A stretch of DNA of 58,264 bases from Clostridia bacterium (lineage in GTDB: Bacteria > Bacillota > Clostridia > Oscillospirales > Acutalibacteraceae): positions 1 to 58,264 of the forward strand of contig JAFRUA010000074.1 in assembly GCA_017434855.1 (NCBI GenBank), written 5' to 3'. The notes below the pieces were generated by a model. That model searched no databases. It was given only the letters and a program-made list of their open reading frames with translations, and had not been told where the DNA came from. This document shows positions 52,433 to 57,522 of the stretch, piece by piece (positions within the stretch are counted from its first letter, which is position 1; each line of letters opens with the position of its first letter). The position numbers and the translations under genes are program-made.

Positions 52433-53500
52433 ATGAATGCAGATATGATTCACAACCGCATCGCGGGCTGCCTGCTGGGCGGCGCATTGGGCGACGCGCT
52501 CGGCTATCCGGTGGAGTTTGACCGATGGTCAGATATTGAATCAAAGTTCGGGCATGACGGCATCTGTGATCTTGTGCCCGACGGCGGGGCGGCCCGTGTC
52601 TCTGACGATACCCAGATGACGCTGTTTACGGCGGAAGGGCTCGTGCTCGGCTATGCCGACGCAAGGCGGCGCAATGCTGTTATGGATGTGGCGGACGCGG
52701 TCTGGCAAAGCTATCTTTGCTGGCTGCAGACGCAGGGGCATCACGCTGCGTCGCGCTGGGATGCGGCCAGCCGACTGCGGACGGTGCCGGAACTGAACCG
52801 CTGCCGCGCGCCCGGCAATACCTGCCTGTCCGCGCTGCTGTCCGGCAGAATGGGAACGCCCGACGCGCCGCTCAATCACAGCAAAGGCTGCGGCGGCGTC
52901 ATGCGCACCGCGCCGCTGGGCTTTTTCCCGCCCGGGGTGCTGCCCGGCACGCCGCTCGGCAACGGCGCCGCGGCGGCCGCCATCACCCACGGGCACCCGC
53001 TGGGCTGGCTGCCGGCGGCGGTGCTGTCTGACCTTGTGTACCGCTGTGTCTTTCTGCCGGGCATCCGCCTTCGGACACATGTGGAATCGTCGCTGACCGT
53101 GGCGAACCGGGCCTACGGAAGCATCCCGGAAATGAAAACGCTGGACGACCTGCTGCGCCGGGCAATCCGGTTGGCCGAAGAAACAGTAACTTGTGCGGAA
53201 CATAATTCGGAGCATGAAAGGATCGCATCCCTCGGCGAGGGCTGGGTCGGCGAAGAGGCGCTGGCCGTCGCCGTCTATGCCGCGCTGCGCTATGAGGACC
53301 CGAGGCTTTCTTTGATCGCGGCCGTGAATCACAGCGGCGACAGCGATTCCACCGGTGCGATCGCCGGCAACATCATCGGCGCGTATTTCGGCGCCACTGC
53401 GCTGCCTGCGGATTGGCTCTCAAAGCTGGAACTGACGGATGTGATCCGGGATACGGCGGACCAATGCTTTAAAATTTTGCAAAACACTTGCATTCGCTGA
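52433..53500 (+). CDS. ADP-ribosylglycohydrolase family protein
   Basis: A 355-residue ARH/DraG-type enzyme. The metal site residues appear in SDDTQMTLFTAEGL (57-70) and in HSGDSDSTGAIAGNIIGAYFG near the C-terminus; GCLLGGALGDALGYPVE opens the fold. Relatives hydrolyse ADP-ribosyl-protein bonds or other ADP-ribose or nucleoside-linked substrates. It is the last gene of the operon, 13 bp after the radical SAM gene. No ADP-ribosyltransferase is in this window, so the substrate is open. Confidence 0.9.
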   Translation: MNADMIHNRIAGCLLGGALGDALGYPVEFDRWSDIESKFGHDGICDLVPDGGAARVSDDTQMTLFTAEGLVLGYADARRRNAVMDVADAVWQSYLCWLQTQGHHAASRWDAASRLRTVPELNRCRAPGNTCLSALLSGRMGTPDAPLNHSKGCGGVMRTAPLGFFPPGVLPGTPLGNGAAAAAITHGHPLGWLPAAVLSDLVYRCVFLPGIRLRTHVESSLTVANRAYGSIPEMKTLDDLLRRAIRLAEETVTCAEHNSEHERIASLGEGWVGEEALAVAVYAALRYEDPRLSLIAAVNHSGDSDSTGAIAGNIIGAYFGATALPADWLSKLELTDVIRDTADQCFKILQNTCIR

Positions 53501-53516
53501 GATTCTATGATAGAAT
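53488..53516 (+). promoter_or_regulatory. Promoter C of the cobalamin-leader operon
   Basis: TTGCAT (53488-53493), 17 bp, TAGAAT (53511-53516). It overlaps the stop codon of the preceding gene. Confidence 0.65.
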
Positions 53517-53536
53517 AAAAACAACAACTGAATCGA

Positions 53537-53687
53537 AAAAGACACAGTTTGAAAAGTTGTGCGCTGAGTAGAGAAGGAATCCGGTTCGAGTCCGGAGCAA
53601 CCGCCATTTCTGTGTTTGCCGCGGTTCGGTATGCGCTTTTCTGCCTACCGAAACGCTCGGCAAGAGTCAGACCCTTTTGTGTCTTTT
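53537..53687 (+). promoter_or_regulatory. Cobalamin-riboswitch-like 5' leader
   Basis: A closing stem pairs AAAAGACACA (53537-53546) with TGTGTCTTTT (53678-53687). The core GGAATCCGGTTCGAGTCCGG (53576-53595) followed by AGC..CCGCCA and CTGTG (53596-53614) follows the order of the cobalamin consensus (GGGAAtccGGTGcgAgTCCGGaGC..CCGCaACTGT). AGTCAGACC (53665-53673) resembles the 3' consensus AGYCAGgAgACC. A 7-bp hairpin (53625-53631 with 53646-53652) lies between. GGTT replaces the usual GGTG. The downstream operon encodes a DUF4430 (transcobalamin-like) protein, which supports the call. Confidence 0.5.
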
Positions 53688-53702
53688 GGTTTTTGTGCTT
53701 TG

Positions 53703-53747
53703 GCGTGAAGAGGAACCGTGACGTCCCCCTTCACGCTTGATTTTTTT
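53703..53747 (+). terminator. Intrinsic terminator in the cobalamin-like leader
   Basis: GCGTGAAG (53703-53710) pairs with CTTCACGC (53729-53736), followed by TTGATTTTTTT, just 17 bp before the ATG. This is the expected expression platform. Confidence 0.7.
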
Positions 53748-53763
53748 GAAAAGGAGAATGACC

Positions 53764-56619
53764 ATGAAACATGCATTCAAAACCCCGCTTGCCCTGCTGC
53801 TGACGCTGCTGATGCTGCTCGGCACGCTGCCGTTCGCGCTTGCGGGCGGCCCGGTGCACATCGCAACGGTCGAAGACTTTGCCGCCTTTGTTGCGGGCGA
53901 CGCGGCTGCCGACGCCATCCTGGACGCCGACATCGACCTTGGCGAATGGACCACCGCGTTCACGGACGGCTACAGCGGCACGTTTGACGGGAACGGTCAC
54001 ACGATCACCTATACCAAAACCAACCCGACCGGCAACTTTCACAGCCTGTTCAAGGTCTTGAATGCGGGCGGCGTCATCAAAAACCTGACCGTCGGCGGCA
54101 GCATGACGTTCAATGCGGCACGGACCTACAACGCCGCGTTCGTGTATGAAAATCACGGCACCATCGAAAACTGCGTCAACGAAATGTCGATCAGCTATCC
54201 CAGCGGCACAAAGAACTGCCAGTACAGCGCGGGCATTGCCGCGAAGAACTACGGCACTGTAAAAGACTGCACCAACAATGGGGCCATCAGCGTGCGCAAT
54301 TACGCCGGCGGCATCGTAGCGCAAAACATGGGCGGCACCGTTTCCGGCTGCGTCAACAACGGCAGCATCACCGCGACCAACGCTGCCGGTTATGCGGGCG
54401 GCATCATCGCGGCCATTGGCGCGGCGAGCAGTGACGACGTCAATTTAATCGAAAACTGCGTCAACAACGGCGCGGTCACCGGCGGCACCGGCGACTATGG
54501 CTATGCGGGCGGCATCGTCGGCCAGATCAATATCGCGTCGAGCTATGCCACCTATACGTCCCGTCCGGCGATCACGATCAGGGGCTGTTCCAACACCGGC
54601 ACCCTGTCTGCGGGCGGCGGAACGGATGACATCGTCGCCAAAAACAACATTCCCGACAACAGCACGCTGACGGTCGAAGCGGGGACCCCCGCGCACGTCC
54701 ACACCTATGACGACGGCGTTGAGACCACGCCCGCCACCTGCGGCAAAGACGGCGTGATGACCTTCACCTGTACCTCCTGCGACGAGGGAACCGAGGGCCA
54801 CACCTATACCGAGCCGATCCCCGCCACCGGCAAGCACACGCCCGGCGAATGGCAGATCGACACCAACGAATCCTCCGACGCGTTTTTCCTGTACTGCACC
54901 GTCTGCGGTCAGTTGCTTGATTCCGACGACAGCGGCGCGGTCATGTTCATGGAGCACGCAAAACAGGCGCTTGCCGACCACTGGTTCCGCCTGAAGCCGA
55001 CCTTCGGCGAAGATACGAATGTCAACGACATGATTTCCACCGCGCTGGAAAAGTACGGCTATCAGGGCATCACCGTCAGCGTTGCGTTCGCCGAGAACCC
55101 GGACGACGGCACGGCGGCCATTGCCGACGACGGCACGGTCACCTATTTCTATGCCGACCCGTCGGGGTATCGTCCGCTGTGGTTCGCGTCCATCCCCGTG
55201 ACCTTCACCTTTGCGAAGGGCGGCAAGACCACGACCTATGCGGCGACCGCCACCGTGAACTGGGATGCCGACAAAGCCCGGAACGCCATCGAGACCCAGG
55301 TCGCGTCCAGAGTGACGGCCGACGCCATCAAGGGCAACAACGAATCGCTGGACGCCCTGACGACCGAGCTGAAGCTGCCGAAGGCCGTGCTTGACGACAA
55401 CGGCGAGCAGATCCTCTGGTCGCTTGTCAGTTGGGAAAGCAGCCGCCCCGGCGTGCTGCTGATCAGCGATTCGGATCAGAGTTCTGCCGACACCCTGTTT
55501 GCGCCGTACCGCGGCATCCTGCGCCGCCCGATGAACGACGTTGACGTCACGCTGACCGCGACGTTCAGCTTCCAGCGCACGGGCTATGACGAAGCGCCCA
55601 TCACCGTGACAAAGACCTTTGACGTGACGGTCAAGGGCACCGGCGACGAGCTCAGAGCCTGGATGCAGCAGGAGCTTGATGAAAAATACACCACGGACAA
55701 GCTGACTTACATCGGCACCAAAGCCCCGGTCGACCCGGCGAACGTCACCTATGACGTTCAACTGCTGCTGCCGAAAACGGCGGGCATCACCAATCCGCAG
55801 AGCTATGCCTTCACCGTGACGTCAGGCGACGAAGAAACGATCTCCATCCTCGGCGCGCGTGCGTGGGTTTACCGTCCGCTGCCGGGCGAGGACGCGAAAG
55901 ACGTGACGTTGACGGTTACAATGGCGCACAAGGACTACAGCGACCTGTCCGTGACAAAGGAGATCACCCTGACCGTTGCCCCGATCACCGAGGCGGAGCT
56001 GGCCGCCCAGACCGCCCTGATGGAGCGTGCCAAGGCCGCGCTGTTTGACGGATTCAACAACAGCGCCAACGAGAGCGCCGCCGCCGTGACCGCGAACCTG
56101 TCCGCGTTCTATGGCGTGATCGAGGATGAAACCGGCAGTCTGCAGTGGCAGTATACCTATCAGGACCAGACCGACACGGGCATCAGCGCCGTTGCGCTCG
56201 ATCCCTTCCATCCGTCGGAGCAGTGGGATCGGTTCCAGTCCTCCGACCCGGACGTCATTACGCATGAAAATCTGCTTGTGACGCCGCAGAAGGAAAACAC
56301 CACCGTCACGATCTACGCCTGTCTGTCCAGCACTGCGTTTGAGCGCTATGCCGAGCGGTACCCGGACGACCCGCGCTTTGACAAGCTCTATCGGCAGAAC
56401 GTCGCGGTGGAGGTCACCGTGCCCGGCACCGATCCGACGCCCGATACGCCCGATACGCCGGATACGCCGGATACGCCGGAAGACGACGGCGCCTGCGCGC
56501 TTTGCGGCCGGACGCACGCAGACAAGTTCCCCGGCCGGCTGGTTGCCGCGCTGCACCGCCTGATCCTGAAGGTCCGCGACTGGTTCTCCGACATCGGCCG
56601 GCGGCTGTTCAACCGCTGA
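53764..56619 (+). CDS. Secreted GLUG-repeat / Ig-like surface protein with CxxCGxxH tail
   Basis: A 951-residue Sec-secreted protein; ATG 53764 follows AAGGAG. Order: signal peptide (about 1-27), a beta-helix of GLUG-type repeats (about 30-310, with FDGNGHTITY, GGVIKNLTVGGSM and repeated YAGGIVxxx), a CxxC segment (about 325-380), several atrophied Ig-like domains (about 390-890), a DTP-repeat linker and the tail CALCGRTHADKFP with a longer amphipathic helix ending RRLFNR. It is the first gene behind the cobalamin-like leader and 15 bp from the DUF4430 gene. It may be a cell-surface scaffold or adhesin for corrinoid or glycan binding. Confidence 0.8.
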   Translation: MKHAFKTPLALLLTLLMLLGTLPFALAGGPVHIATVEDFAAFVAGDAAADAILDADIDLGEWTTAFTDGYSGTFDGNGHTITYTKTNPTGNFHSLFKVLNAGGVIKNLTVGGSMTFNAARTYNAAFVYENHGTIENCVNEMSISYPSGTKNCQYSAGIAAKNYGTVKDCTNNGAISVRNYAGGIVAQNMGGTVSGCVNNGSITATNAAGYAGGIIAAIGAASSDDVNLIENCVNNGAVTGGTGDYGYAGGIVGQINIASSYATYTSRPAITIRGCSNTGTLSAGGGTDDIVAKNNIPDNSTLTVEAGTPAHVHTYDDGVETTPATCGKDGVMTFTCTSCDEGTEGHTYTEPIPATGKHTPGEWQIDTNESSDAFFLYCTVCGQLLDSDDSGAVMFMEHAKQALADHWFRLKPTFGEDTNVNDMISTALEKYGYQGITVSVAFAENPDDGTAAIADDGTVTYFYADPSGYRPLWFASIPVTFTFAKGGKTTTYAATATVNWDADKARNAIETQVASRVTADAIKGNNESLDALTTELKLPKAVLDDNGEQILWSLVSWESSRPGVLLISDSDQSSADTLFAPYRGILRRPMNDVDVTLTATFSFQRTGYDEAPITVTKTFDVTVKGTGDELRAWMQQELDEKYTTDKLTYIGTKAPVDPANVTYDVQLLLPKTAGITNPQSYAFTVTSGDEETISILGARAWVYRPLPGEDAKDVTLTVTMAHKDYSDLSVTKEITLTVAPITEAELAAQTALMERAKAALFDGFNNSANESAAAVTANLSAFYGVIEDETGSLQWQYTYQDQTDTGISAVALDPFHPSEQWDRFQSSDPDVITHENLLVTPQKENTTVTIYACLSSTAFERYAERYPDDPRFDKLYRQNVAVEVTVPGTDPTPDTPDTPDTPDTPEDDGACALCGRTHADKFPGRLVAALHRLILKVRDWFSDIGRRLFNR

Positions 56620-56634
56620 TAAAGGGGGACGATT

Positions 56635-57522
56635 ATGAAGCTTCGACGGATTCTCAGCATCGTTCTGCTGTGTGTGCTGCTGTGTACGGCGGTGCCGCTG
56701 CAGGGCATGGCGCTGCACACCGACGACTTTCAGGTCATCATCAGCATGGAGGGCCTGACGCTGGGCCAGGGCTTTTATGTGACGCCGACAAAATACACGA
56801 TGGACGAGATCAACGCCCTGCTGGCGCCGCAGGGCTTCGGCCCCTTCACCAAGCGAAACCTGACGGTGGCGATGGCGACGCTCGCCATGCTGCGCGACAA
56901 AAATCTGACCGCACACTTCAACGCCCGGTGGGACAAGAACATCGCCTATCTGACCGGCGTGGAAGACATCGACAAGGGCACGGTGAATATCCCGGCCGTC
57001 ATCACGCAAAACGGCGGCCCGTCCAACCGGACCGTTCGGAAAAACGCCGACCGCTCGCTGGATGAAATGGACTATACCGACCAATCCGGCTGGATGGTCA
57101 CGGTCAATGACTTTATGATCAGCGACAACATTGCAAAGTTCGGGCTGGAAAACAACAACACCCCGCGCAACAAAGGCTTTCAGGATTACGGCAACACCTA
57201 TGTCATCCGCTGGCAATTCACCCTTTGGGGCTATGGGCTGGACCTTGGCTTCAAGCTGCCGGGCTGGGACGCGACGCCCTATTTTACCCACGCAAACAAG
57301 GATGCGCTCTATGCCGCCTATGCGACCGGGACCGACGCCGATGCCAAAGCAAAGCTGCTGCCTGTGATGGAAAACCTGACCGCCGCCCAGACCGAGGTTG
57401 ACGCCGCACTGGACGCCTATGAGCATCCCGCCCAGCCGGAACCGGAGCAACTGAATTTCTTCCAGCGTCTGCTCGCGTTCTTCCGCAATCTGCTGCACAA
57501 ACTGTTCCCGTTCATCAAATAA
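56635..57522 (+). CDS. Secreted DUF4430-like (transcobalamin C-terminal-like) protein
   Basis: A 295-residue secreted protein; signal peptide about 1-26. The centre fits the DUF4430 pattern: SMEGLTLGQGFYV, then DQSGWMVTVNDFMISD and NTYVIRWQFTLWGYGLDLGF, which mirror the sGWmyyVNg and D-x-I-R-W-x-y-T-x-x-x-G-x-D-L segments. DUF4430 resembles the cobalamin-binding C-terminal domain of transcobalamin. It ends in an aromatic basic amphipathic helix (LNFFQRLLAFFRNLLHKLF) but lacks the CxxCG part of the tail. Cotranscribed with the GLUG protein. The ligand is inferred, not shown. Confidence 0.7.
   Translation: MKLRRILSIVLLCVLLCTAVPLQGMALHTDDFQVIISMEGLTLGQGFYVTPTKYTMDEINALLAPQGFGPFTKRNLTVAMATLAMLRDKNLTAHFNARWDKNIAYLTGVEDIDKGTVNIPAVITQNGGPSNRTVRKNADRSLDEMDYTDQSGWMVTVNDFMISDNIAKFGLENNNTPRNKGFQDYGNTYVIRWQFTLWGYGLDLGFKLPGWDATPYFTHANKDALYAAYATGTDADAKAKLLPVMENLTAAQTEVDAALDAYEHPAQPEPEQLNFFQRLLAFFRNLLHKLFPFIK

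Follow-up and report, generated by a model that had tools for sequence, protein, structure and literature searches.

Near the 3' end of a 58,264-nucleotide contig from a Clostridia bacterium of the family Acutalibacteraceae (assembly GCA_017434855.1, contig JAFRUA010000074.1), an ADP-ribosylglycohydrolase-like gene is followed by a promoter-like site, a leader of ~230 bases that resembles a cobalamin riboswitch, and genes for two exported proteins, and the question raised by this locus is what the leader senses, what it controls and in which direction it switches. The window, as we call the stretch analysed, is this entire contig (G000:C69 in our labels, where G, C and L mark genomes, contigs and leader loci), and it belongs to a genome of 2.74 Mb in 77 contigs with a completeness of 97.9%. 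A first-pass annotation, made from the sequence, had proposed a corrinoid-capture system of the cell surface that is repressed by B12. The reading that we favour is that, in a B12-auxotrophic bacterium, a riboswitch subtype probably controls the transcription of two exported corrinoid-capture proteins, and would do so by activation.

The Rfam model of cobalamin riboswitches (RF00174) aligned over its full length to 53529-53694, as the first-pass annotation had anticipated. The score was another matter, since it was 18.7 bits (E 0.0079 when 341 bases were searched, 0.0148 for the whole genome), under the gathering score of 31.5, and this counts against the assignment; at gathering thresholds, the sole Rfam match in the window was the 3' end of a 23S rRNA gene, and the leader was unreported. 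The leader was nevertheless the sole credible RF00174 match in its genome. The only other one at E <= 10 (contig C49, 12.5 bits) was rejected as coding-looking sequence. The score of the window leader is insufficient alone, and the leaders of relatives decide the case. The parts of the aptamer are as follows.

53539-53547, forward strand: 5' strand of P1, AAGACACAG, paired at 9 of 9 positions with 53677-53685.
53548-53571, forward strand: conserved subtype signature TTTGAAAAGTTGTNNNCTGAGTA in the P2 region, with columns that hardly vary, if at all, across an alignment of 36 leaders, most of which were retrieved by a pattern holding most of that signature.
53574-53619, forward strand: aptamer core by the RF00174 alignment, with the 5' side of P3, P4 with a T-loop-like L4, P5/L5 and the start of P6.
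53580-53596, forward strand: P4 with the T-loop-like L4; L5, CCGCCA, lies at 53601-53606.
53620-53664, forward strand: peripheral hairpin, variable in the family (fold and alignment of nine leaders).
53665-53685, forward strand: AGTCAGACC junction, 3' side of P3 (CCTT, 53673-53676) and 3' strand of P1 (TTGTGTCTT, 53677-53685).

The closing stem and the core near the cobalamin consensus that had been claimed are both there. The fully paired P1 has permutation support, its own strands beating all 1000 permutations (42 distinct strand pairs), and the core elements GGAATCCGGTTCGAGTCCGGAGCAACCGCCATTTCTGTG and AGTCAGACC are present. In P4, double changes preserve the pairing at 4 of the 5 base pairs (36 sequences), and the P1 and P4 helices are both kept by compensating changes. 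In addition, L5 and L13 show a five-base complementarity (CGCCA, 53602-53606, with TGGCG, 53701-53705), and a complementary run of 4 or 5 was found in 121 of 121 family leaders, a count that is partly by construction because the platforms were located by patterns containing that motif. The leader thus has in common with RF00174 the helices P1, P3, P4 with the T-loop-like L4, P5/L5 and P6, the AGTCAG junction and the L5-L13 complementarity; it differs in that the conserved TTTGAAAAGTTGTNNNCTGAGTA replaces the plain P2 hairpin, in an L4 that reads GGTTCGAG and in a short junction before P3. The junction between AGTCAG and P3, which tunes corrinoid selectivity, is by eye 1-2 bases shorter in three leaders (window, sister G027 and L163) than in the rest of those compared. 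RNAalifold on the 36 leaders predicted two further conserved complementarities, 53540-53547 with 53610-53617 (P1 5' strand with CTGTRTTT) and 53556-53560 with 53597-53601 (GTTGT with RCAAC), which possibly represent an alternative ligand-free fold.

RF00174 matches above the cut-off were obtained in 17 of the 34 genomes of the window's genus, and five leaders of this genus that carry the window's signature (TTTGAAAAGTTGTNNNCTGAGTA, CAACCGCCATT) reached 76-84 bits (G003:C4, G005:C18, G011:C32, G012:C17 and G033:C32). With these sister leaders of the same subtype well above 31.5 bits, and with the association with downstream genes described below, the proposal of a cobalamin-type riboswitch is backed, and we predict that the leader is almost certainly a corrinoid riboswitch. 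The signature pattern occurred in at least 119 stretches of public genomes; the 80 matches listed were mostly metagenome-assembled genomes (MAGs) of Clostridia, Oscillospiraceae, Ruminococcaceae and Lachnospiraceae, and among them were also isolates of Ruminococcus bicirculans and Cuneatibacter caecimuris, while a MAG labelled Alistipes contributed two contigs. A subtype model built from 36 sequences, the window leader among them, gave matches at E <= 0.01, several of which were weak, in 17 of the 111 genera of the order and in 22 of its 197 genomes; at E <= 10 it matched nothing in the window genome except the window's own leader. Cobalamin leaders of two or more other kinds are also present in the genus, namely short ones of ~115-145 bases and classical ones (L057, L058, L061, L066, L039-L044), which often adjoin a DUF4430 frame of ~140-180 amino acids. 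Our searches of one open-access library showed no description of this leader subtype or capture system; the papers on DUF4430 that it returned mentioned no bacterial B12 system in their titles or abstract openings, and on activating corrinoid riboswitches it gave, from 2023 on, PMC10653944 only.

What the subtype controls was assessed with trimmed profiles on the unique leaders having at least 3 kb of downstream sequence (n=60), the upstream sequences, both strands, serving as control (n=59). Downstream, DUF4430 of either kind was found at 42 loci, a transcobalamin-type toroid at 43 and energy-coupling factor (ECF) transporter components at 30, with any of them at 54 and none at 6; upstream, the numbers were 1, 1 and 6, with any at 6. 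DUF4430 or toroid proteins lie downstream of 49 of the 60 unique leaders and upstream of 1 of 59. Eleven of the 60 loci had supplied profile sequences, and without them (n=49) DUF4430 was found at 31, the toroid at 35, ECF components at 22 and any at 43, with DUF4430 or toroid at 38. Both profiles were matched by 26 open reading frames (ORFs) behind subtype leaders when all loci are counted, of which four (L128, L136, L152 and L180) had supplied a DUF4430 sequence, and by our own reading of the match tables Pfam DUF4430 is matched no more than 6 kb away, on the contig concerned, for 26 of the 37 RF00174 matches of the genus. These results support that the subtype is tied to transcobalamin-like (toroid plus DUF4430) proteins and ECF transporters. 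They also bear out the link to corrinoid capture that had been suggested for the window, and we predict that the locus very probably has a role in it.

In L031, L032, L034 and L035, which come from close relatives and contain the complete operon, the leader is followed by a window-type DUF4430 gene, a toroid gene, a gene for a DUF4430 protein with a lipoprotein-like start, an EcfT-like gene and an ATPase/S component; among these four, only L031 has a GLUG-like protein between the leader and the window-type DUF4430 gene. The DUF4430 domain also begins larger proteins behind subtype leaders (L180, L136, L152 and L128). Other observations were made behind the leaders of relatives. A small ORF of ~95-110 amino acids lies between the leader and the exported proteins at L107:7999-8283 (reverse strand), with similar ones in L108, L063, L151, L161 and L180, and that of L107 matches Pfam HNH_repeat (homing endonuclease associated repeat). 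In L172:2751-5603 (reverse strand), a 951-amino-acid toroid-like protein behind a subtype leader has a dockerin match of 23.1 bits against a cut-off of 22.9, hinting at docking on a scaffold.

The two proteins encoded behind the window leader both have signal-like N-termini by eye, in keeping with the two secreted proteins of the first-pass annotation, and their features are listed here.

53764-56619, forward strand: exported 951-amino-acid protein with GLUG-like repeats by eye and a Pfam aBig_2 domain at residues 525-624.
56635-57522, forward strand: exported 295-amino-acid protein with a divergent DUF4430 (transcobalamin beta-domain-like) segment.
57055-57249, forward strand: DUF4430-like segment by hhalign, residues 141-205, with SGWM.TVN, IRWQFTL and G.DLG in this order.
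57442-57504, forward strand: C-terminal helix in the structure model, residues 270-290, a possible surface-retention tail.

In the second protein, Pfam DUF4430 (PF14478) gave 15.9 bits (E 0.019), under the cut-off of 23.8. However, a profile of 13 relatives compared with classical DUF4430 gave a hhalign match of 96.6% probability (E 6.5e-10) that spanned the SGWM...TVN and RW.(F/Y)T motifs. Its AlphaFold model had a predicted local distance difference test (pLDDT) score of 85.7, and the three best Foldseek matches in the PDB were 3kq4 and 2pmv (intrinsic factor) and 4kki (haptocorrin). In TCN proteins, DUF4430 designates a domain that lies towards the C-terminus (PMC4350170). The profile and fold matches taken together support the transcobalamin-like character that had been claimed, and we regard the second protein as a predicted divergent DUF4430 protein that has the beta-like part only, without the alpha/alpha toroid. 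On the other side, the Foldseek E-values were weak (0.06-0.16) with identities of 7-8%, and a PDB sequence search with the family of the window protein returned nothing at E <= 1. With classical DUF4430 as query, the same search gave 7 weak matches (E >= 0.15) whose names include no B12 carrier; the toroid family gave 11, most of them cyclases (squalene-hopene and others), and likewise no B12 carrier. Neither window protein matched NCBIfam at E <= 0.01.

The name of GLUG protein given earlier to the 951-amino-acid product was not borne out by Pfam: Glug (PF07581) had no match in it at E <= 0.1 and aBig_2 was the only domain found, the GLUG-like repeats being visible by eye only. Pfam Glug was matched by the proteins of L037 and L183, which lie behind leaders of the same subtype in relatives, and orthologues of the 951-amino-acid protein (72% and 64% identical) stand behind homologous leaders in G027 and G029. 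Its structure model, computed from a 3-row alignment, was unusable (pLDDT 49.9), a point against the favoured reading, and its role is suggested by its position only. As to how the proteins are held, weak matches to the Phe-rich C-terminal tail of the second one (residues ~256-294) occur on further ORFs of the genus, of which three belong to the window genome (E 7.6e-4 to 0.008), with tail-like matches at G000:C39:28323-28427 and G000:C19:123915-123995. It is plausible that a shared tail of this predicted kind keeps proteins at the surface.

The window bacterium should need external corrinoid, to judge from its gene content, because its genome (97.9% complete) encodes a MetH-like protein with B12-binding domains and has no match to CobS or to CbiC. 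No ECF genes were found downstream of the leader within the window. Contig C19 of the same genome carries an operon for a toroid protein whose end is LPXTG-like, a DUF4430 protein that begins like a lipoprotein, a protein resembling EcfT and a fusion of two ATP-binding cassette (ABC) ATPase domains with an ECF S-component (ECF-ribofla_trS, above cut-off); the EcfT and toroid members match Pfam only below cut-off, which weakens this assignment. Rfam gave no cobalamin match at E <= 1 in 18 kb around the C19 operon, and in sister G027 the corresponding toroid/ECF operon does carry a subtype leader (L100/L163). Since the C19 operon has no recognisable riboswitch, it seems that in the window species the switch governs only an accessory surface pair and not the C19 core of toroid, DUF4430 and ECF proteins. 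The DUF4430 protein of the window may bind corrinoid, perhaps jointly with the C19 toroid protein, and pass it to the C19 ECF transporter, and the GLUG-like/aBig protein could be a surface scaffold or holder.

We then come to the sign of regulation, which involves two elements between the aptamer and the first gene.

53688-53717, forward strand: P13 hairpin, GGTTTTT (53688-53694) with AGGAACC (53711-53717), and L13, TGGCG, at 53701-53705.
53702-53747, forward strand: intrinsic terminator (-16.9 kcal/mol), with stem 53702-53710/53729-53737, TGA, and TTTTTTT at 53741-53747.

The terminator had been correctly pointed out, and consists of the 53702-53737 hairpin, TGA and seven T; our terminator scan, which found no more sites than it did in shuffled sequences, left it unlisted because of the scan's loop limit of 3-8. 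Its 5' arm overlaps L13 and the 3' arm of P13. Procknow et al. (PMC10653944) showed activation by a corrinoid riboswitch whose P13 and terminator exclude each other, and repression by another in which P13 promotes the terminator. Because the P13 3' arm is here the terminator 5' arm, the layout of the activating riboswitch of that work, we predict by analogy that the subtype probably activates rather than represses. The B12 repression previously assumed is therefore a claim that we would not maintain, as activation is at least as likely with P13/L13 and the terminator sharing nucleotides as they do in the activating cobT leader of Alkalihalobacillus halodurans. Without corrinoid, the strong terminator would form and the genes would be off; with corrinoid, an L5-L13 kissing loop would stabilise P13, which would act as antiterminator, and the genes would be on.

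In silico, P13 (7 pairs, -4.8 kcal/mol, or 10 with the outer pairs, -5.8 kcal/mol) forms in transcripts ending at 53718-53722 and is replaced by the terminator from 53728 on, and in the full-length transcript the constrained energies are -61.1 kcal/mol for the P13 state and -70.1 kcal/mol for the terminator state. Among the relatives, 13 of 134 leaders were without an expression platform by the patterns used, some of them coming from contig ends, and 94 platforms were unique, of which 92 were usable for a pair-probability test and 91 for an arm-permutation test that superseded it, the control of the former being weak. The permutation test found the terminator pairing with the shared arm to be as good in 0 of 5000 permutations in energy and in 0 to 1 in pairs. 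Of the 91 leaders, 63 combined 6 or more P13 pairs with 8 or more terminator arm pairs, and variants seemingly compensated in both hairpins were seen by eye in L121, L148 and L162. In the pair-probability test, the shared arm paired downstream (P>0.5) in 82 of 92 leaders compared with 49% of shuffles; the window's own downstream pair probability for this arm was just 0.28.

Two side observations concern the shared arm. In 52 of 93 leaders the P13 3' arm has its complement in two or more distinct stretches, the second being often GTTGTACTCTTT (many of 14 inspected; e.g. G003, L129 and L130), ~80 bases past the shared arm, with no T-run after it and transcribed after the terminator. The aptamer sequence GCAACCG (53597-53603) recurs, in many relatives, within the arm that P13 and terminator share (GTGCAACCGAT), as if by mimicry.

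Several results weigh against activation. The covariation of P13 was weak, with 158 to 492 of 5000 permutations as good in the 91 platforms; when its duplex was swapped among 24 variant arms, out-of-register pairings dominated; and early pairing with the P13 5' side exceeded 0.3 in 60 of 92 leaders against 45% of shuffles, a modest gain. Moreover, GAATC (53530-53534), close to P1 on its 5' side, can pair with GGTT of the P13 5' arm, and the predicted terminator state of the window has a longer P1, so that if corrinoid binding favoured this extended P1 the switch would repress. This is the substance of the strongest alternative, in which riboswitch and genes are the same and corrinoid closes the extended P1, takes GGTT from P13, abolishes the antiterminator and lets the terminator form. 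It agrees with the finding of AAYC upstream of P1 in the window, G027, G029, G032, G004b and G017, and with precedent, since repression was the rule for the corrinoid riboswitches known before 2023 (PMC10653944) and B12 transporters are the usual targets of cobalamin riboswitches (PMC3766115). However, AAYC was found in just 16 of 105 leaders, even if most of the window's closest relatives are among them, and an extended P1 is not a family trait, because G021a, L140 and L176 carry by eye a hairpin-like insert between P1 and P13 and yet keep P13. Repression in this form also leaves no role for the L5-L13 kissing loop in the bound state, and we consider it a possible but somewhat doubtful explanation.

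A second alternative, compatible with either sign, is that the aptamer has changed its ligand to an incomplete or different corrinoid (e.g. cobinamide or a non-B12 cobamide) or to something else. The shorter junction after AGTCAG in the window, G027 and L163 points in this direction, as does the activating switch of A. halodurans, for which cobinamide elicits the strongest response (PMC10653944); the genes around leaders of the subtype, however, indicate corrinoids in general, and we hold such a change to be unlikely. That the window copy is a decayed riboswitch with no corrinoid sensing, its genes attenuated or constitutive, is very improbable, for although the low RF00174 score, the shortened junction before P3 and the TGA between terminator stem and T-run would fit, the fully paired P1, P4, the L5-L13 complementarity and P13 are retained, and the leader of sister G027 diverges in the same way, its terminator stem being followed at once by T and its genes being orthologous.

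Returning to activation and taking it to the whole family, the chances seem to us evenly balanced that a riboswitch subclass widespread among Clostridia of gut and rumen switches on operons for B12 capture in response to corrinoid, in a feed-forward manner and with P13 as antiterminator, and that these operons encode toroid/DUF4430 proteins, fused or split, as Gram-positive counterparts of the vertebrate B12 carriers feeding ECF transporters, with only the accessory pair under the switch in the window species. B12 uptake by Gram-positive gut bacteria is unsettled, and it has been suggested that at least some of them use variations of known machinery (PMC6977713); for this problem the locus and its relatives offer a concrete system of transcobalamin-like surface proteins and ECF transporters associated with one riboswitch subtype. 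If activation is true, the first known activating type of corrinoid riboswitch would extend to uptake genes in many species. It would also overturn the common practice of equating a B12 leader with repression by B12, a point of importance for regulons drawn from gut metagenomes.

The remaining features of the locus concern its borders. The promoter that had been claimed is present by eye as the following boxes.

53488-53516, forward strand: promoter-like -35 box TTGCAT (53488-53493) and -10 box TAGAAT (53511-53516), with a spacer of 17 bases.

These boxes were not among the matches of a consensus promoter scan, and several sister leaders have TTGACT or TTGATT at the position of the -35 box. 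On the 3' side of the second gene lies an ORF of the reverse strand that matches TfoX_N weakly, and the contig ends after it; for this reason the operon seems to have the 56635-57522 ORF as its last gene. At the opposite end, the contig starts inside a bacterial 23S rRNA gene, the 3' end of which occupies positions 1-243 of the window (Rfam).

Compared with known systems, the exported proteins recall the vertebrate intrinsic factor, haptocorrin and transcobalamin through the DUF4430-like segment and the fold matches of the second window protein, but the vertebrate carriers have toroid and DUF4430 in one protein, whereas in the window protein the toroid is absent and the similarity distant. The toroid partners at C19 and in relatives, which resemble the squalene-hopene-cyclase class of toroids, add to the likeness to the vertebrate carriers. 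BtuG/BtuB of Bacteroides are similar in being surface proteins that feed a B12 transporter, and ECF-type cobamide uptake in Lactobacillus delbrueckii is similar in its type of transporter (both PMC6977713). Unlike in Bacteroides, the cells here are of the Gram-positive type and use DUF4430/toroid proteins, and a beta-propeller was seen in one relative, G003, where the first large gene after the leader (L107:6655-7992, reverse strand) encodes 446 amino acids with a signal-like N-terminus and beta-propeller matches (PQQ_2); by analogy with BtuG, the beta-propeller with which Bacteroides captures B12, it could be a parallel solution. For the riboswitch, the closest system by layout, compared without alignment, is the A. 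halodurans cobT leader, the first corrinoid riboswitch shown to activate, in which the P13 3' arm is likewise the terminator 5' arm, the two hairpins exclude each other and L13 UGGC is complementary to L5 (PMC10653944), although that leader precedes cobT and the window subtype surface-protein/ECF operons. The repressing metE leader of Priestia megaterium shares the L5-L13 kissing loop and terminator control, and differs in that P13 can exist together with the terminator, the antiterminator being a third hairpin (PMC10653944); some other cobalamin leaders of the window's genus look nearer to this metE layout, their P13-like and terminator hairpins being separate in L039, L042, L058 and L061 (10 folded, by eye).

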